A stretch of DNA of 64,000 nucleotides. Source: Hymenobacter armeniacus. GTDB taxonomy: Bacteria > Bacteroidota > Bacteroidia > Cytophagales > Hymenobacteraceae. A model generated the notes under the pieces. That model made no database searches and was not told the DNA's origin. It worked only from the letters and a program-made list of their open reading frames with translations. The position numbers were made by a program, and so were the translations under genes. The first letter of the stretch is position 1. The number at the start of each line of letters is the position of its first letter. Positions 7,748 to 63,574 of this stretch are shown here, piece after piece. The DNA lies in the NCBI RefSeq assembly GCF_014699055.1, contig NZ_JACXAC010000001.1, forward strand, positions 868,001-932,000, read 5' to 3'.

Positions 7748-9442
7748 ATGGCGCTTTCGACACGTAAATGGTTAGGGTTGGCACTGCTGGCCGGGGCGCT
7801 TGAGTTGCTGGCGGCGGCTCCTGCTGCGGCGCAGGGCACGGTGCGGCGCCACCTGGTGTACTTCCGCGACAAGGCCGGTACGCCTTACTCCGTCACCCAG
7901 CCGCAGGCCTTTTTGTCGGCCCGCGCCATTGCCCGCCGCACCAAGCAGGGTATCGCCGTGCTGCCCCGCGACCTGCCCGTGAACCCGGCCTACGTGACGC
8001 AGGTGAAAAACCTGACCGGCAGCCCGCAGGTGGTGTACACGTCGCGCTGGTTTAATGCCGCCGTGGTGGCCTGCGACTCCGTCACCCTGGCCCGCATCAC
8101 GGCGCTGCCCATTGTGCGCAGCGCGGCCACGCTCAACCGCAGCCAGCAGAAATTCTCGCCCGCGCCGGCTCCCGTGCAGGTTCCGCCAGTGGCCGCCCGC
8201 GGCACGCTGGCCACCCGCGCCCAGTACGGCCCGGCCTACCAGCAGGACCGGCAGATTGGCGCCACGGCCATGCACGACGCGGGCTTCCGCGGCGACGGCA
8301 TGCACATTGCCGTGTTCGACGCCGGCTTCCCGGGCGTGAACCAGATTCCGGCCATGCAGCCGCTATTTCAGGAAAACCGGCTGGTGGCCACGCGCAACTT
8401 CGTGGACGGCGGGAAGAATGTGTACCTGCGCAACAGCCACGGCACCAACTGCGTGTCGGCCATTGCGGCCAACCAGGCCGGGTTCTACATCGGCACCGCG
8501 CCCAAAGCCACGTTTCACCTCTGCATTACCGAAGACGTAAACTCGGAGCATCCCATCGAGGAAGCCAACTGGCTGGCCGCTGCCGAATACGCCGACTCGG
8601 CCGGCGTCGACGTCATCAGCTCCTCGCTGGGCTACACCACGTTCGACGCCCCGTCGCGCTCCTACACCTACGCCGCCATGAACGGCCGCACGGCCATCAG
8701 TTCGCGCGCGGCCACCGTGGCGGCCCGCGTGGGCATGGTGGTGGTGAGCGCCGCCGGCAACGAAGGCAACAATTTCTGGCGCTACATCTCGGCCCCGGCC
8801 GATGCCGACTCCATCATCTCGGTGGCCGCCGTCGATTCGATGGGCAACAAGGCCGGGTTCAGCTCTTTTGGGCCCTCGGCCGATGGGCGCATCAAGCCCA
8901 CGCTGGCGGCAATGGGCCAGGCGGCGGCCGTGCTCTCGCCCAGCGGCGCGGCGTTTCGCGGCAACGGCACGTCGTACGCCTGCCCGGTGCTGGCGGGCAT
9001 GGTGGCCGGCTTTTGGCAGGCCAACCCCACGCTCACCGCGCAGCAGGTGATTGCGGCCCTGCGCAGCACCGCGTCGCAAGCCAACAACCCCGACAACAGC
9101 CTCGGCTACGGCATCCCAAACTTTGTGACGGCCTACAACGCCCTGCACCCCACGGCGCCGCTGGCCGCCACCGCCAGCAGCCCCACCGCCGAGGCCCTGG
9201 GCCTGTACCCGAACCCGGCCGGCGAAGGGGCCCTTACGCTGGTGCTGCCCCAGGACCTGCGCGGCCAGCCCCTGACGCTGCGCGTGCTCGACGCCCGCGG
9301 CGCGGTGGTGGCCCAGCAGCGGCTCAGTGCCAGCACCAGCAGCGAGGTGCCCGTGCGAATGGGACGCCTTGCCAAGGGCGCTTACACCTGCGAAGTAAGC
9401 GCTGGCACCACCCGCCGTACCGTGAAATTTGTGCAGCAATAA
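7748..9442 (+). CDS. Secreted subtilisin-like serine protease with type IX sorting domain
   Basis: S8-family peptidase of 564 residues. Signal peptide ends APAAAQ (about residue 29). Catalytic triad is visible: Asp191 in IAVFDAGF, His231 in NSHGTNCVSAIA, Ser409 in GNGTSYACP, with oxyanion Asn338 in SAAGNEG. The C-terminal ~80 residues (LYPNPAGEGALTLVLP ... GAYTCEVS) are a type A Por sorting domain, so export by T9SS is expected. Start is the first ATG with a signal peptide; the frame extends upstream only through a TTG. A strong terminator follows. Confidence 0.95.
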   Translation: MALSTRKWLGLALLAGALELLAAAPAAAQGTVRRHLVYFRDKAGTPYSVTQPQAFLSARAIARRTKQGIAVLPRDLPVNPAYVTQVKNLTGSPQVVYTSRWFNAAVVACDSVTLARITALPIVRSAATLNRSQQKFSPAPAPVQVPPVAARGTLATRAQYGPAYQQDRQIGATAMHDAGFRGDGMHIAVFDAGFPGVNQIPAMQPLFQENRLVATRNFVDGGKNVYLRNSHGTNCVSAIAANQAGFYIGTAPKATFHLCITEDVNSEHPIEEANWLAAAEYADSAGVDVISSSLGYTTFDAPSRSYTYAAMNGRTAISSRAATVAARVGMVVVSAAGNEGNNFWRYISAPADADSIISVAAVDSMGNKAGFSSFGPSADGRIKPTLAAMGQAAAVLSPSGAAFRGNGTSYACPVLAGMVAGFWQANPTLTAQQVIAALRSTASQANNPDNSLGYGIPNFVTAYNALHPTAPLAATASSPTAEALGLYPNPAGEGALTLVLPQDLRGQPLTLRVLDARGAVVAQQRLSASTSSEVPVRMGRLAKGAYTCEVSAGTTRRTVKFVQQ

Positions 9443-46866: not shown

Positions 46867-46874
46867 TACCTTTG
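46867..46874 (+). promoter_or_regulatory. TAnnTTTG -7 box abutting a start codon
   Basis: TACCTTTG only four bases before the ATG of the small lipoprotein gene, so the transcript would be leaderless or nearly so. Confidence 0.6.
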
Positions 46875-46878
46875 CGCC

Positions 46879-47109
46879 ATGAAGTTGCTGCTCCGTTTGT
46901 TTTCGTCTTTGTTGCTGCTGTTGGCCGTGGGCTGCCGCACGTGCCCCATCGAGTCCTGCCACACCCGCAAGGTGCACCTGCACAGCGGCGTGAAGTACCA
47001 CGGGCAACCCTTCTGGAAGATGCAGAACCCAGCCATTGGGCAAAAAATCAAGACTTACAATCCCAAAGCCGGGAAGAACCCGCAGGACAAGAGCAAGACG
47101 TTGAAATAG
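46879..47109 (+). CDS. Small putative lipoprotein
   Basis: 76 residues. Lipoprotein signal LLLLLAVGC with Cys19, then a short basic domain beginning RTCPIESCHTRKVHLHSG and ending in Lys. Two further cysteines follow the lipid site closely. Unknown function; similar tiny lipoproteins are common in the phylum. Its own -7 box and a terminator make it a single-gene unit. Confidence 0.72.
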   Translation: MKLLLRLFSSLLLLLAVGCRTCPIESCHTRKVHLHSGVKYHGQPFWKMQNPAIGQKIKTYNPKAGKNPQDKSKTLK

Positions 47110-57348: not shown

Positions 57349-59748
57349 CTAGTGCACGGCCATGGTGGCCGGTTGGCCGGCTTCTATTTCGACCAGGGCT
57401 TGCAGGAGCCGGGCATTTTCGCTGGCAGTTCCCACGGTGAGGCGCAGGCAATTGGCGCAGCCGGGCTGGGTGGTGCGGTTGCGCACCACAATGCCGCGGG
57501 CGCGCAGCTGGTCATAAATGGCCGTGGCGTCGGAAGTGAAGCGAACCAGGAGAAAGTTGGCGTCCGATGGAAAAACGTGCTCTACCATCGACAAGCGAGG
57601 CAGCTGTTCGGCCAGATAGGCTCGCTCCTTCAGCAATTCGGCCTGCATGGCTTCCAGCCGGGGCGCGGCGGCCAGGGCGGCCAGCGCGTGCTGCTGGGTA
57701 GCGGCCGAAATGTTGTAGGGCGGCTTGATTTTGTTGAGGTAGGCTATCAGCTCGGGCGCGGCATAAGCTACGCCCAACCGCAGGCCGGCGAGGCCCCACG
57801 CTTTAGAGAAAGTCTGCAGCACCACCAGCCGGGGGAATTCGGCCAAACGCGTGGTCCAGCTCGGCCCCGCCGCAAAATCTGCGTAGGCCTCATCGACGAT
57901 GACCAGACCGGGGAATGTCCGCAGGATGCGCTCCAGGGCGTCCTGAAGCAGCAGGTTGCCGGTAGGATTGTTCGGCGAACACAGGAAGACCATTTTTGCC
58001 TTCGAGCGAGCCAGCGTATCAAACGCCGAATCTGGCATCTGGAAGTCGGGCGTCAGGGGCAGGCGCTCCACGCGCACGTCGTTGAGGTTGGCCGCCACTT
58101 CGTACATGCCGTAGGTGGGCGGACACACCACAATGGCGTCCTGGCCCGGCGTGCAGGTGAGGCGCACCAGCAGGTCGATGGCCTCGTCGGAACCATTGCC
58201 CAGGAAGATATTGTCCGGCTTCACGCCCTTCAAACGAGCTAAATCGGCCTTGATGGCGCGCTGGTGCGGGTCGGGGTAGCGGTTGAACTCGTCGGGGCCC
58301 ACCGAGCCCAGGCTGTTTTCGTTGGCGTCCAGCATCACGGGCGCCATGCCCTCAAATTCGTCGCGGGCCGAAGAGTACGGCTGCATGCGCTCCACATTGG
58401 GCCGAATCAAACCGGCATAGGGGTTAGTGCCGACGGACGCTGCCTCGGCGGAGGCATTCGTAGCGAGGGCAGCCAAGCGCAGCGAAACGGCGCGGGCGTG
58501 GGCGGCCAGTCCTTCGGCTTCGGCCATGGTTTCCACCACCGGACCCAGCGCCTGCAATCCCGCAGCCGAGAGCCGCTGAAACGTAATTTTTTTAACGAAA
58601 GAATCGAGCGACACGCCGCTGTACTGGCGGGCATAGCCGCTGGTGGGCAGCGTGTGGTTGGTGCCGGAGGCGTAATCGCCCACCGCTTCGGGCGTGAGGT
58701 GACCCAAAAACACCGAACCGGCATTGGTGACCTGGTTGGCCAGCGCGTCGGCGTTGTCGGTGGACAGGATGAGGTGCTCGGGCGCGTATTGATTAGAGAA
58801 TGCCAGCATGGCCTGGTCGTCGGGCAGCAGCACGGCGCGGCTGTTGGCCAGGGCCTGGGCCGCCACGTCGCGCCGGGGCAAGGTGGCCAGCTGGCGCTCT
58901 ACTTCGGCCTGCACGCGCACAATGACTTCGGCGCGGCTGCTCAGCAGCACCACTTGTGAATCGGGCCCGTGCTCGGCCTGCGACAACAAATCGGCCGCCA
59001 CGAACACCGGGTTGGCATGACCATCGGCAATCACCAACACCTCCGACGGACCGGCCGGCATGTCGATGGCCACGCCGTGCTCAGCGGCGGCCAGCTGCTT
59101 GGCTGCCGTGACGTAGCGGTTGCCCGGCCCGAAAATCTTGTCCACCGCGGGCACGGCAGCGGTGCCAAGGGCCATGGCGGCCACGGCCTGGGCACCACCC
59201 GCTTTCACTACGGTGCGGATGCCGAGCAGCTGCGCCACGTAAAGAATAACCGGGCTGACGGTGCCGTCGGGCTGAGGCGGCGTGCACACCACGATTTCGG
59301 TGCAACCCGCCAGCCGAGCCGGCACGCCCAGCATCAGCAGCGTGCTAAACAGCGGCGCGCTGCCGCCGGGCACGTACAGGCCCACCCGCTGCACGGGTAC
59401 CGCGCGCCGCGCGCAGCTCACCCCGGGCATGGTTTCTACGCGCAGCTCGGGCTCACGCTGGGCGGCGTGGAAGGCTTCAATGTTGGCTTTCGCTTGGCGG
59501 ATGGCGGCCTGCAGCTCGGCTGGCACTGCCGCCGCTGCGGCCGAAAACTCGGCCGGTGACACCAGCAGACTGCTCAGCGCGGCGTTGTCAAGCTCGCTTG
59601 CCAGGGCTAGCAGCGCGGCGTCGCCTTCGGCTTGCACGCGGGCAAAAATAGCGCGTACTCGCGCGGCCACCTGCGGAGCTTCGGCAGCGGCCGGGCGCTG
59701 CAGCAGGGCGGCCCAGGTGCCGGGGTCGGGATAGGAATAGACTTGCAT
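57349..59748 (-). CDS. hisDC: Histidinol dehydrogenase fused to histidinol-phosphate aminotransferase
   Basis: One open frame of 799 codons covers two enzymes normally separate. Residues 1-~425 are His[47 protein letters not shown] and [19 protein letters not shown] linker of ~25 residues ([19 protein letters not shown]) leads into His[50 protein letters not shown] and the PLP lysine, Lys649, in [14 protein letters not shown]. There is no stop or frame change in the linker. Both active sites look intact. Follows hisG by five bases. Confidence 0.94.
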
Positions 59749-59753
59749 GGCGG

Positions 59754-60605
59754 CTAGGCAATCATTTTTTCGATGGGCAGCACCAGGATGCCTTCGGCCC
59801 CAACGGCCTTCAGCTGACTGGTGATGTGCCAGAACTCGTCTTCCTGCACCACCGACTGCACCGACACCCACCCGGGCTCGGCCAGCGGCGTCACGGTGGG
59901 CGACTTGATGCCCGGCAGCAGACGCCGCACTTCGTCCAGGGCGCTCAGGGGCGCATTCAACAGGATGTACTTGCTGCGCTTGGCGCGGCGCACGGCCTGC
60001 ATGCGGAAGCGCAATTGCTCCAGCAGGTCCGTTTGCTCCGGGCTGAGGTTGGGCTGCGCGATGAGCACCGCCTCGGACCGAAACACGGTTTCGACTTCGC
60101 GCAGGCCGTTGCCGAGCAAGGTAGAGCCGCTGCTCACAATGTCGCAGATGGCCTCGGCCAGGCCGATGCTGGGCGCGATTTCCACCGAGCCGCTGATGGT
60201 GTGCAAGTTGGCCTGCACCCCTTGCCCGGCCAGGTAGCGGCCCAGAATGTTGGGGTACGAGGTGGCAATGTTCTTGCCCTGCAGCGCGGCCACCGAGGCG
60301 TAAGCGTCGGCGCGGGGCACGGCCAAGCTCAGGCGGCACTTGCTAAAGCCCAGGGCTTCGACCTCGAGGTCGGGGAAACCGGCTTCGACCAGCACATTCT
60401 GCCCCACAATGCCGAGGTCGGCCACGCCGTCCTGCACGTAGCCGGGAATGTCGTCGTCGCGCAGGAACAGGATTTCGAGCGGGAAATTGGTGGCTTCGGT
60501 CTTGAGTTTATACGAGCTGCTGATGAAGCTGATGCCGCATTCGCGGATGAGCGCAAGGGAATCCTCGCTCAGGCGACCGGACTTTTGAATGGCTAAACGT
60601 AGCAT
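59754..60605 (-). CDS. hisG: ATP phosphoribosyltransferase, long form
   Basis: First and feedback-regulated step of histidine synthesis. Catalytic domain: LRLAIQKSGRLSEDSLALI, DGVADLGIVGQNVL, IATSYPNILGRYLA and the PRPP loop EIAPSIGLAEAICDIVSSGS. The last ~75 residues form the C-terminal ACT-like histidine-binding domain, so this is the hexameric HisG-L form that needs no HisZ. 283 residues. First structural gene after the his leader. Confidence 0.97.
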   Translation of the reverse strand: MLRLAIQKSGRLSEDSLALIRECGISFISSSYKLKTEATNFPLEILFLRDDDIPGYVQDGVADLGIVGQNVLVEAGFPDLEVEALGFSKCRLSLAVPRADAYASVAALQGKNIATSYPNILGRYLAGQGVQANLHTISGSVEIAPSIGLAEAICDIVSSGSTLLGNGLREVETVFRSEAVLIAQPNLSPEQTDLLEQLRFRMQAVRRAKRSKYILLNAPLSALDEVRRLLPGIKSPTVTPLAEPGWVSVQSVVQEDEFWHITSQLKAVGAEGILVLPIEKMIA

Positions 60606-60689
60606 GAAGGAAGGGGGCGGGCAGTGCCGGCAGGGGGCACGTCGTGGTTCTTACTCCGGCACAACCGGTTTGGATGCAGAACCTCCCGA

Positions 60690-60780
60690 AAAATGAAGAA
60701 AAAGCCCGGCGCTTGCTCGCCCCGGTGCGCGGTGGCGGAGGCACGGGCGGCCGGTGCTAGGCTAGCACCCGGCGCACAGC
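60690..60780 (-). promoter_or_regulatory. Candidate attenuator of the his operon
   Basis: Downstream half of the his leader RNA. A perfect hairpin, GGTGCTA/TAGCACC, contains the leader peptide's stop codon. A GC-rich stretch follows and ends GCGCCGGGCTTTTT at 60712-60699. Possible 5' arms for the final stem are GGGGCG (loop AGCAAG) or GCCCG-T-GC further up. The layout fits alternative hairpins chosen by ribosome stalling at His codons; the exact stems need folding. Confidence 0.65.
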
Positions 60781-60884
60781 CCGGCCCCCCACAGATGGTG
60801 GTGATGGCCGTGTACCCCAACCGCTGCGCCAGCCGCAGCGGCGGCGAACGAAGAAATAAAGGAAGGGGCGTTGGTGGCGTTCAT
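60762..60884 (-). CDS. hisL: Histidine-rich leader peptide of the his operon
   Basis: A 40-codon frame, ATG to TAG, 157 bases before hisG. Its middle reads GVHGHHHHLWGAGL: five His in six residues, using both CAC and CAT. The first half is Ala-rich (MNATNAPSFISSFAAAAAG). Position, His run and the following GC-rich hairpins and T-run match his attenuator leaders. The ATG is only eight bases from the -7 box, so the message has almost no untranslated leader. Scarcity of charged tRNA-His would stall the ribosome at codons 25-30. Confidence 0.85.
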   Translation of the reverse strand: MNATNAPSFISSFAAAAAGAAVGVHGHHHHLWGAGLCAGC

Positions 60885-60892
60885 TGTGGCCG

Positions 60893-60923
60893 CAAAGGTA
60901 AGCACATTTGCCAAACTGGCAAA
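60893..60923 (-). promoter_or_regulatory. his operon promoter with overlapping inverted repeat
   Basis: On the minus strand TTTG, 19 bases, then TACCTTTG: both elements of the Bacteroidota consensus at the expected spacing, the best promoter in the window. A perfect 7-3-7 inverted repeat, TTTGCCA-GTT-TGGCAAA, starts at the -33 box and covers the spacer; it could be an operator. Confidence 0.8.
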
Positions 60924-61012
60924 CATTAGCCACACAGAGTATCCAACTCCATACAGTTAAGCCTGAAATGCTGATAAGTACATAACGCGTTACCTCGCGA
61001 GCGGGCCGGCTG

Positions 61013-63574
61013 CTAAAAACGCGCCACGACGCGCAGGTTCACCAGGCGCTGCGAGAGGTAGCTTGGCACCGAATACGTCACGCCGTTCACGTCCTGCAAA
61101 TAATTGTAGCCGGCCACGTTGTTGGCCGCAAACACGTTGAGGATTTCCAGCCCCAGCCAGAGGCTTTCGAAATCGTAGAAATGCGCTTTGGGGGCGTTGG
61201 TGTTTTTCAGGCTTACCACTTTGGAGAAGCCCAAATCGACGCGGCGGTAAATGGTGGTGAGGGCATCGGTGCCGCGCAAATCGGGCTGGTTGGGCGGGCT
61301 GAACGGCAGGCCCGTGCCCAGTACCAGGTTCACGTAGCCGCGCACCGAGGGGTTGTTGGGCAAATGGTCCTGGAAAAAGACGCCCAGGTTCAGGCGCTGG
61401 TCCTGGGGGCGGCGGATGAATCCCTTGGCCTCCCGGCCCACTTTCTTGCCGTCGGCATCCACCACGTTGGCCGAGTCGCCGGCCACGTTTTCGCGGGTGG
61501 TGAGCACGCCGAGGCTAAACCACGACTCGGCGCCCCGCACAAACTCTCCGCTCAGGCGAGCGTCGAAGCCGGCGGCGTAGGCGCGGGCGTTGTTTTTGGC
61601 GAAGTAGCGCAGCCGCACGTTGTCGATGTCGTAGGGCACCACGTCGGTGAGGTACTTGTAGTAGGCCTCCCCGGTGAACTTAAACGGCCGTCCAAACTGC
61701 TGGAAGGAAATTTCCTTGCCCACGATGAAGTGGTAGGATTTCTGGGCCCGCAGCTCGGGGTTGAGGTAGGCTTGCTGCACGCCCTGGGCAATGGTGGTCT
61801 GGTCGCGCAGCTCGCGGTAGAACGGCGGCTGGTAGTACACGCCCACGGCGGCTTTGAACGAGCGGTTGGGGTGCAGGCGGCTGATTTGCGAGTACTGCAC
61901 CCGCGGGCTCACCACCAGCTGGCCGTTGGTGGTCCAGTAGTGCACGCGGGCGCCGTAGGTGAGCGTGCGCAGCGTGTCGAGGCTCCAGGTGTCCTGCACG
62001 AAGCCCTGCGAGCGGGTGCTGAGCAGGCTCAGGTCGGAGCGCAGGCGCAGGCGGCGCGCATCGGGCACGTAGTCGGCCGAGTCGGCGAAGCTGTACTCGT
62101 CCAGGGTGTCGCTGATTTTTTCGCGGCCGATTTTGGCGCCCCAGCGCACCGTGTGGCTGGGCGCCGCAGTCCAGCGCCCCCGCGTTTCGGCGGTAAAAAT
62201 CTGCGCGTCGAGAAAGTTGCGCGAGTGCTTGAACTGCGAGCCAATGTCGCGCTGCCGCACGGCCTGGTTGAATTCCAGCGACTTCGGGTCGCGGTTGATG
62301 GCGGCAAACGTGTACGCGGCTTCCACGTCGCGCAGCTCCGACTCGCGCGAAACCAACGCCGAGCCCAGCAGCTCCATCTGCAGCCGCGAGGAAAAATCGT
62401 GCTTCAGGTTGAGCCCGCTTTGGTAGGTGTCGAACTGCATGCGCTCGCGGCCATCGTAGGCGATGAAAACGCGCGTGAGCTGGTTGGGGCCGGTAGAGAA
62501 CGTAGCCTCCCCGGTTTCGGGCGAGAAGCGGTAGTCGTTGTGCGCCACCACCCCCAACAGGCCCAGCGAGGTGCGCTGCATGTCATCCTTATTGCCCAGG
62601 CCGATGGTAACCAGCGCCTGCGCGTCGTAGAACGTGGGGTTGTAGCCGCCCTGCGACTGCTTGAGCGACCGCAGCACGTACTGCGCGTTTTTGTAGCGCA
62701 CACCCGCCAGATAGCTCACGCGGCCGTTGGCGGAGCGCGCCTCGGCGTGGGCCGCGCCGCCCACCAGGCTGGCGGTGAGCGAGGCGGCAAACTTCTCGGG
62801 CGTTTTGTACTCCACGCTCAGCACCGAGGCCAGCTTGTCGCCGTACTTGGGCTGCCAGCCGCCGCTGCTGAACTCCACCTGCTTCACCAGGTCGGGGTTG
62901 ATGAAGCTCAGGCCCTCCTGCTGGGCCGAGGTCACCAGAAACGGCCGGTAAATCTCAAAGCCGTTGACGTACACCAGGTTTTCGTCGTAGTTGCCGCCGC
63001 GCACGCTGTAGGTGCTGCTCAGCTCGCTGTTGGAAACCACGCCCGGCAGCGTTTTCAGAATAGCGTTGAAATCGCCGAATGCCGAGGGAATGTCTTTAGC
63101 TTGGCGCGGGTCGATGTGCGTAATGCTGACCTGCTCGCGGGTGTCGGCCTGCTCCGAGCGCGCGGTCACCTTCACGGCGCTCAGCGCTTTGGTGTCGAGC
63201 CGCATGGTCAGCGCGAAGGGCTTGGCGGCGTCGGCCGGCAGGCGCAGGGGGATGCGCAGGGGCAGATAGCCCAGGCGCCGCACCACCAAAAAAGTATTCT
63301 GCCCACCCTCGCGCACGCGCACGGTCAGCGTGAAATTGCCCTCCGACGTGGTGTTGGCGCCGCCCGGCAGGCCCTCCACTCCCACCGCTGCCAGCTCCAG
63401 CGGCTGGCCGCTGGCGTCGCGCAAGGTGCCAGTCAGCGTCACGGCGGTGGTAGCGGGAGTTTGGGCGGGCAAGGCCGCGGGCGTTTGCGCCTGCGCCGTG
63501 GGGCCAGCCACCAGTACCACCATCACCCCACAAGCCGAAGCCTGGGCCCACAAGGCGCGTCGAAATTCCCTCAT
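61013..63574 (-). CDS. TonB-dependent receptor with N-terminal carboxypeptidase-like domain
   Basis: 853-residue outer-membrane receptor. Signal peptide ends GPTAQAQ. A carboxypeptidase-regulatory-like (CarboxypepD_reg) domain follows: VTLTGTLRDASGQPLELAAV to LRIPLRL. Then the plug: ITHIDPRQAKDIPSAFGDFN, ILKTLPGVV, YSVRGGNYDENLVYVNG and FSSGGWQPKYGDKLASVL. The rest is the 22-strand barrel, ending NLRVVARF. Start is the ATG of MREFRRALW; the open frame above it is not protein-like. No SusD partner adjoins, so iron chelate, vitamin or peptide uptake are all possible. Confidence 0.93.
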   Translation of the reverse strand: MREFRRALWAQASACGVMVVLVAGPTAQAQTPAALPAQTPATTAVTLTGTLRDASGQPLELAAVGVEGLPGGANTTSEGNFTLTVRVREGGQNTFLVVRRLGYLPLRIPLRLPADAAKPFALTMRLDTKALSAVKVTARSEQADTREQVSITHIDPRQAKDIPSAFGDFNAILKTLPGVVSNSELSSTYSVRGGNYDENLVYVNGFEIYRPFLVTSAQQEGLSFINPDLVKQVEFSSGGWQPKYGDKLASVLSVEYKTPEKFAASLTASLVGGAAHAEARSANGRVSYLAGVRYKNAQYVLRSLKQSQGGYNPTFYDAQALVTIGLGNKDDMQRTSLGLLGVVAHNDYRFSPETGEATFSTGPNQLTRVFIAYDGRERMQFDTYQSGLNLKHDFSSRLQMELLGSALVSRESELRDVEAAYTFAAINRDPKSLEFNQAVRQRDIGSQFKHSRNFLDAQIFTAETRGRWTAAPSHTVRWGAKIGREKISDTLDEYSFADSADYVPDARRLRLRSDLSLLSTRSQGFVQDTWSLDTLRTLTYGARVHYWTTNGQLVVSPRVQYSQISRLHPNRSFKAAVGVYYQPPFYRELRDQTTIAQGVQQAYLNPELRAQKSYHFIVGKEISFQQFGRPFKFTGEAYYKYLTDVVPYDIDNVRLRYFAKNNARAYAAGFDARLSGEFVRGAESWFSLGVLTTRENVAGDSANVVDADGKKVGREAKGFIRRPQDQRLNLGVFFQDHLPNNPSVRGYVNLVLGTGLPFSPPNQPDLRGTDALTTIYRRVDLGFSKVVSLKNTNAPKAHFYDFESLWLGLEILNVFAANNVAGYNYLQDVNGVTYSVPSYLSQRLVNLRVVARF

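Follow-up and report, generated by a model that had tools for sequence, protein, structure and literature searches.

A probable ribosome-mediated attenuator of the his operon in Hymenobacter armeniacus, with a histidine-rich leader ORF predicted to start almost at the 5′-end of the transcript

How could Hymenobacter armeniacus adjust transcription of its his operon to the supply of histidine? The question is raised by a short His-rich ORF upstream of hisG on the minus strand of a 64,000-nt stretch of DNA (contig NZ_JACXAC010000001.1 of assembly GCF_014699055.1, positions 868,001 to 932,000), which was analysed as a whole and is called the window below. Leader-peptide attenuation is a classical kind of control. 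Very probably, the his operon is controlled here by ribosome-mediated attenuation of transcription, with transcription starting about 4 nt before the AUG of the leader ORF. The leader ORF, its His run, the spacing of the promoter box, their conservation, the pairings X:Y, S and T′ described below and (in the window’s clade) the mutual exclusion of two of them rest on sequence, comparison and folding.

The leader ORF (60884-60762, minus strand as all other features of the leader; read from the sequence, with coordinates checked by script) has 40 codons followed by UAG, and its 40-residue product would be MNATNAPSFISSFAAAAAGAAVGVHGHHHHLWGAGLCAGC; codons 25-30 (60812-60795) read H-G-H-H-H-H. Between the end of the leader ORF and the start of hisG there are 156 nt. 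The hisG gene (60605-59754; PF01634 with E 6.5e-50, and PF08029) would be the first gene of the regulated operon, and it is followed by a joined hisD-hisC ORF, hisB, hisH and hisA. The joined ORF and hisB were identified by Pfam matches, as were a class-I glutamine amidotransferase, taken as hisH by its position, and a His_biosynth protein, taken as hisA. The joined hisD-hisC ORF (57349-59742, minus strand) encodes 797 aa, with PF00815 at 20-423 and PF00155 at 484-783; of 80 named loci, 12 have an ORF of at least 700 aa next after hisG, and each of these belongs to the 56 Hymenobacter-type loci. Upstream of the leader ORF lies a promoter of Bacteroidota type (60923-60893) with a −33 TTTG (60923-60920), a 19-nt spacer and a −7 box, TACCTTTG (60900-60893); 8 nt (CGGCCACA) separate the box from the ATG at 60884. 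The original prediction, made from the letters of the window, had listed five His codons in a six-codon stretch, a leader ATG eight bases after the −7 box, a hairpin over the leader stop codon, a GC-rich stem ending in T5, and hisG downstream. All five features are there: the UAG is located within the hairpin 60773-60750, and the GC-rich stem ends at 60704 with UUUUUC next to it. An inverted repeat, TTTGCC AGTTT GGCAAA (60923-60907), extends between the −33 and −7 elements; relatives keep part of it, and it is possibly an operator.

A run of His codons might, in principle, appear by chance in a GC-rich spacer. In the six frames of the window, at least five His in six codons were found in 2 of 112,930 stop-free six-codon stretches; the one besides the leader, HHHHAH at 8746 (minus strand), is a point in favor of chance. 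This explanation was refuted by comparison of relatives and its probability is practically negligible. Upstream DNA was collected via HisG and, with identical upstream regions counted once, gave 138 Hymenobacteraceae regions from Hymenobacter, Solirubrum, Rufibacter, Pontibacter, Adhaeribacter and other genomes of the family (hisG was matched in 201 genomes, and the counts cover the fetched ones; region L221 was left out as too short). An ORF with an ATG start and at least three His in seven codons (the −7 box being allowed as TWnnTTTG) was present upstream of hisG in 137 of 138 distinct regions, and in 134 of 138 the best stretch had four to six His. The conservation of His codons in relatives that the original prediction called for is thereby seen. 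In the sole region without a His leader (L151, G080:C54), the DNA adjacent to hisG resembles that of relatives and the leader part is replaced by unrelated DNA; this case is either a rearrangement or an assembly error.

For the order, class and phylum we used a slightly looser rule (three His in eight codons, three start codons). With this rule, the His leader ORF was seen in all 30 further genomes sampled from the same order or class. Across the wider Bacteroidota it was present in 36 of the 40 regions, the count for other classes being 6 of the 10 regions fetched from same-phylum, other-class matches. The same draw of 40 gave 2/40 on the opposite strand and 5% in shuffled sequence. On the other hand, other families of the same order contributed 13 regions (fetched of 15 genomes with a hisG match), of which six had such a leader and seven did not. 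Thus, to judge from these sequences, the His sensor appears to be common across the class and to have been lost or replaced in a portion of the order.

Within the family we distinguish clade I (31 sequences including the window), clade II (60), clade III (15) and the Pontibacter/Rufibacter/Adhaeribacter group (24). These groups differ in the place where the leader ORF begins relative to the promoter. The Bacteroidota promoter consensus is TTTG / TAnnTTTG, with the −7 box running from T−12 to G−5 in the Flavobacterium data presented in parts of PMC6847099 and PMC9723704. With the box at these positions, +1 of the his leader is predicted at 60888, 4 nt before the AUG, the 5′ untranslated stretch being CACA (60888-60885). 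A passage of PMC10783764 defines leaderless mRNA by a 5′ UTR shorter than 8 nt; the length predicted here from the box position is 4 nt, and in each of the 46 sequences of clades I and III the box is separated from the ATG by 6-8 nt (6-8 nt in 31/31 of clade I, 7 nt in 15/15 of clade III). The gap is 8-11 nt in all 24 regions of the Pontibacter/Rufibacter/Adhaeribacter group and 16-25 nt in 59 of the 60 clade II regions, the sixtieth being without a box. Near-leaderless starts are thus, as far as the position of the box predicts them, specific to clades I and III rather than general to the his attenuators of the family. The near-leaderless leader proposed in the original prediction fits the gaps of these two clades, including the window.

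There is a minor, still appreciable chance that the attenuator is real and its leader is not near-leaderless, i.e. that the true start is further upstream and TACCTTTG is not the promoter used. The 5′-end is a prediction, the gaps of clade II would suit such a start, and so would the state of the −33 element in clade I: TTG occurred 17-21 nt before the box in 19 of 31 regions versus 18 of 31 at a control offset, thus not above control, and its conservation is unsupported. However, TACCTTTG is identical throughout the clade I alignment, every member of clades I and III has a short gap, and such gaps are common in the genome of H. armeniacus itself.

In that whole genome (G000), we counted 83 occurrences of TACCTTTG followed by ATG within 0-30 nt; the reversed control gave 33. 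Gaps of exactly 4 nt accounted for 16 of them, gaps of 3-10 nt for 45 and gaps of 24-28 nt for 22, so that the distribution is bimodal: one peak at 4 nt, and a further cluster at 24-28 nt. A gap of 4 nt would place +1 on the A of the ATG. The pattern TAHHTTTG-N4-ATG outnumbered its control in all 31 Hymenobacter genomes (41 versus 10 in the genome of the window); among 61 genomes drawn from the phylum, many members of the class showed a clear excess and many other genomes did not. The bimodal gaps suggest, at the level of sequence, a large class of leaderless genes in Hymenobacter. One short-gap example in the window (46867-46881, plus strand) precedes a 76-aa ORF that we labelled lipoprotein-like. 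Elsewhere in the phylum leaderless mRNAs or very short leaders are described as rare in the parts of the literature bearing on this point: 5.5% in F. psychrophilum (PMC9723704) and about 3.7% of leaders shorter than 10 nt in B. thetaiotaomicron (PMC7366714), with 87% of leaders longer than 10 nt in F. johnsoniae (PMC6847099).

Another promoter-like element was seen in Rufibacter and Adhaeribacter, where TATCTTTG is close to the hisG start: at 46 ± 1 nt before hisG in L107, L108, L110 and L115, and at 24 nt in L111 and L119. It is possibly a second promoter bypassing the attenuator.

The clades also differ in what follows the His run. Most members of clade I have HHHH-LW(G/E)AGLCAGC, and in clade III the peptide ends with HHHHL directly before the stop, or alike. 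In clade II and in the Pontibacter/Rufibacter/Adhaeribacter group the peptide mostly ends with HHSS, HHSSF or similar residues, and these ends sit over a conserved stop-codon hairpin, AUUCCUC...GAGGAAU. After the His run of clade I, third codon positions are invariant and second positions vary; a stop one codon past the last His was found in 4 of 31 sequences of clade I and in 15 of 15 of clade III. Invariant third positions next to changing second ones, along with the early stops in clades I and III, argue that RNA rather than the peptide end is kept after the His run.

What RNA structure might be preserved there? In the 31 aligned sequences of clade I, strand X (GGGGGCCGGGC, 60789-60779) pairs with strand Y (GCCCGUGCCUCC, 60748-60737) to form the putative antiterminator X:Y, and hairpin S (60773-60750), which covers the leader stop codon, is nested inside it. 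Y is also, by alignment and folding, the 5′ strand of the putative terminator hairpin T′ (60748-60704), whose 3′ strand is GCGCCGGGC; the U-rich tract UUUUUCUUCAUUUUU (60703-60689) follows the stem. The same 3′ strand can instead form a local hairpin (60728-60704) compatible with X:Y, in which 86.3% of cells were paired, with compensatory changes.

Pairing was counted in cells of the clade I alignment and compared with 500 shuffles. The two parts of the X:Y helix, of 6 and 5 pairs, were paired in 100% and 98.7% of cells, and S in 96.5%. For X:Y, S and the local hairpin taken as one set, 95.8% of cells were paired versus 94.7 in shuffles, with 10 cells changed on both sides versus 3.2 expected; neither value was reached in any of the 500 shuffles. 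The number of pairs changed on both sides was unexceptional for this set (reached in 41/500), and sliding the pairing partner lowered its pairing to 29-52%. For T′, 92.7% of cells were paired (89.6 expected; 0/500 shuffles) and 6 cells were changed on both sides (2.8 expected; 10/500); here, too, the number of pairs changed on both sides showed no excess (282/500). By energy, the best fold of this segment in the window is T′ with −23.9 kcal/mol, the local hairpin having −15.8 kcal/mol and X:Y with S −37.8 kcal/mol. T′ was optimal or within 1 kcal/mol of the optimum in 26 of 31 sequences. In two sequences (L054 and L143), it is the local hairpin, not Y, that compensates for a change in the terminator 3′ strand, and T′, when forced, was 0.7 kcal/mol short of the optimum in both.

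X:Y and T′ are thus predicted, from alignment and folding, to be mutually exclusive in the window’s clade via the shared strand Y. A competing terminator and antiterminator, as anticipated in the original prediction, can therefore be named, and both have support in the 31 aligned sequences; this support does not extend to clades II and III or to Pontibacter/Rufibacter. The terminator arm and the U tract vary among relatives. A strict hairpin-plus-T test was passed by 18 regions out of 31 in clade I (6/31 when shuffled) and by 5 of 24 in the Pontibacter/Rufibacter/Adhaeribacter group (shuffled 3); clade II was represented in this test by a random 20 of its 60 regions, and in all 15 regions of clade III the strongest hairpin-plus-T candidate was located just before hisG instead. 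Terminators are less regular in clades II and III and in Pontibacter/Rufibacter.

The support for structure is comparative. Two simpler computations were of no help: the 194-nt leader as a whole does not fold more stably than expected (z −0.28; 81 of 200 shuffles at least as stable), and a simple terminator scan left the GC stem unflagged, reporting just two other sites, both upstream of the leader. An automatic helix search ranked X:Y and S and missed both T and T′ owing to alignment shifts. The choice of T′ is partly post hoc. In a first simulation, with the local hairpin as terminator, ribosome position had no effect, and that candidate was rejected; this failure led us to look for T′, which shares strand Y, and the pair counts of T′ given above serve as a check.

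The effect of ribosome position was computed by equilibrium folding, with three footprint sizes in the runs over the clade. With the A-site on codons 25-28 of the window’s leader, the probability of X:Y was 0.80-1.00 and that of T′ at most 0.02. T′ rose to 0.67 with the ribosome on codon 29 and was 0.53 on codon 30; on codons 31-33, X:Y was 0.00 and T′ 0.92-0.99. On codons 35-39, T′ dropped to 0.01-0.18, as the ribosome there frees other pairings, and it was 0.93-0.95 at codon 40 and the stop. The values without a ribosome were 0.27 for X:Y and 0.59 for T′. Among the 31 sequences of the clade, 30 gave X:Y a higher probability when the ribosome was on the first two His codons than when it had passed them, for all three footprint sizes; T′ was likelier past the His codons in just 18-21, and for T′ together with the local hairpin there was no significant dependence on the ribosome across the 31 sequences (p 0.09-0.22). 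The model thus gives the window the behaviour of a textbook attenuator, with the clade uniform for the antiterminator and partial for the terminator. The architecture of transcription attenuation proposed originally is supported in its antiterminator half and in the sharing of Y by X:Y and T′, and it is uneven in its terminator half.

The exact 5′-end, actual translation of the leader, termination and the response to histidine are the steps that we infer, and they would be linked as follows. Transcription would begin some 4 nt ahead of the leader AUG, with the ribosome loading almost at the 5′-end. When charged His-tRNA is scarce, the ribosome would stall on the first His codons and leave strand X free; X would pair with the emerging Y, with S nested inside, Y would be barred from the terminator and the polymerase could continue to hisG. 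When His-tRNA is plentiful, the ribosome would cover X, Y would pair with the 3′ strand GCGCCGGGC, and T′ followed by UUUUUC would end transcription.

The uneven terminators invite a different ending of the same scheme. If attenuation were Rho-dependent, Rho would load on Y together with the C-rich stretch downstream of it (GCCUCCGCCACCGCGC), a site masked by X:Y in His starvation, and the GC hairpin would only make the polymerase pause. Such a role fits with X:Y being the most uniform element, one that sequesters the C-rich stretch; with the poor U tracts in 13 of 31 relatives; and with clade III, which keeps X:Y and shows no obvious terminator next to a U tract. We give it a small chance only: in the window UUUUUC comes directly after the stem, T′ is itself supported by the comparison, and a canonical intrinsic terminator is present in the trpE leader of this genome.

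The sequence between the terminator and hisG would matter most if control were translational, i.e. if translation of the leader altered folding around the hisG start. A motif, UUUUUCGGGAGGUUC (60693-60679), overlaps the end of the U-rich tract and is conserved around GGG in clade I; as UUUU-CGGGA after the terminator it has a counterpart, UUUGGGU, in clade III. The retention of the motif after the U tract (UUUUCGGGA) in clade I, the recurrence of CCCG upstream of hisG and the strong hairpin just before hisG in 15/15 of clade III all point toward translational control. Pairing of the motif with CCCG remained unproven, with no excess in matched over swapped sequences (14.03 versus 13.93; permutation p 0.39), and the exclusive pair X:Y / T′ is situated well upstream of the hisG start; we regard this kind of control as very improbable. 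Termination at T′ is the reading that we prefer.

One could speculate further, with somewhat less than even confidence, that in the class Bacteroidia his leader-peptide attenuation is ancient and near-universal, operating with non-Shine-Dalgarno ribosomes, and that two Hymenobacter clades have a truly leaderless sensing ORF (5′ UTR of about 0-4 nt). Bacteroidota ribosomes mostly disregard Shine-Dalgarno sequences, and attenuation requires a ribosome close behind RNA polymerase. If the generalization is true, the first ribosome would load on the 5′-end as the RNA leaves the polymerase, so that the sensing ribosome would be tied to the polymerase from the start; besides its leadered genes, Hymenobacter would have a large class of leaderless genes with a box-to-ATG gap of 4 nt. 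For transcription-translation coupling in Bacteroidota, a conserved his attenuator whose switch is readable could make a simple reporter, and the same sensor, near-leaderless in clades I and III and leadered in clade II of one genus, would offer a natural experiment on the loading step.

The genome of H. armeniacus contains other candidate leaders. The trpE leader, MTSPRTSQAWWWQFRNIGPACLCAS (WWW; G000:C5 near 718395, L154), is located about 207 nt upstream of a PF04715 match and is followed by the canonical terminator (GCCCGGC...GCCGGGCUUUUUU). Its box, TATCTTTG, is 31 nt before the ATG; hence the trpE leader is not near-leaderless. Upstream of the prephenate dehydratase gene (G000:C7 near 580842, L155) there are two tandem Phe/Tyr-rich leader ORFs, MFQTRYFFGYYYFYATA and MVPTQQVFFYYGYTFFYSKKPARCCPR. 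A GC stem and an identical CTTTTTTATTGCCCAATTC come after each of them, and the pair is possibly a duplicated attenuator. LeuA_dimer had no match in this genome.

How does the his leader compare with known systems? Searches of the window at 58000-63000 with E up to 5 gave no match to the Gammaproteobacteria His_leader (RF00514) or to Bacteroid-trp RNA (RF01692), and no T-box riboswitch among the matches. The leader’s own locus (L165) had no RF00514 match at E up to 0.5, and RF01692 had none at E 0.5 in 15 loci, including the genome’s own trpE region. Bacteroid-trp RNA, which Table 1 of PMC2864571 gives as a cis-regulatory motif of Bacteroidetes named for trp, thus did not match the present leader. 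In a relative of the same class, the hisG upstream region (L240:322-426, plus strand) had a full-length RF00514 match; at 33.9 bits it falls short of the gathering score (49), and it hints that sequences outside the limits of the Rfam family share this architecture. Like RF00514, the leader in the window has a His-rich ORF before hisG, an antiterminator and a terminator that exclude each other, and the his operon downstream; unlike it, the ORF starts almost at the predicted 5′-end, the promoter is of Bacteroidota type and the stop codon is in a hairpin nested in the antiterminator.

Attenuation of this kind was originally characterized as best known from Proteobacteria, which is fair; however, the relevant section of PMC9723704 already reports, for Flavobacterium psychrophilum and other Flavobacteriaceae, strong indications of leader-peptide attenuation in front of amino-acid operons, together with a conserved 5′ element of hisG that has no match in Rfam. 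That element belongs to the same phylum and the same gene; the section does not give the anatomy of a peptide or switch, which is described here for Hymenobacteraceae. A leaderless attenuator ORF is represented by trpL of Sinorhizobium meliloti in the part of PMC7298713 concerned with it; trpL differs in sensing Trp rather than His, in belonging to Alphaproteobacteria and in its 14-residue peptide, and its 5′-end is stated there, whereas the one here is predicted. Some His-leader attenuators of Firmicutes, as outlined in a portion of PMC9413887, resemble the present one in having presumed peptides with three to five consecutive His codons and candidate terminator and antiterminator hairpins; they come from another phylum and from few lineages, while here the leader was found in nearly all sampled Hymenobacteraceae. 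In the literature searched, with subscription papers mostly outside the search, we found neither the his leader of Hymenobacteraceae nor any leaderless his leader described. What is new in comparison with these systems are the Hymenobacteraceae leader peptides, the X:Y/T′ pair and the predicted near-leaderless start, whose restriction to particular clades is the distinctive trait.
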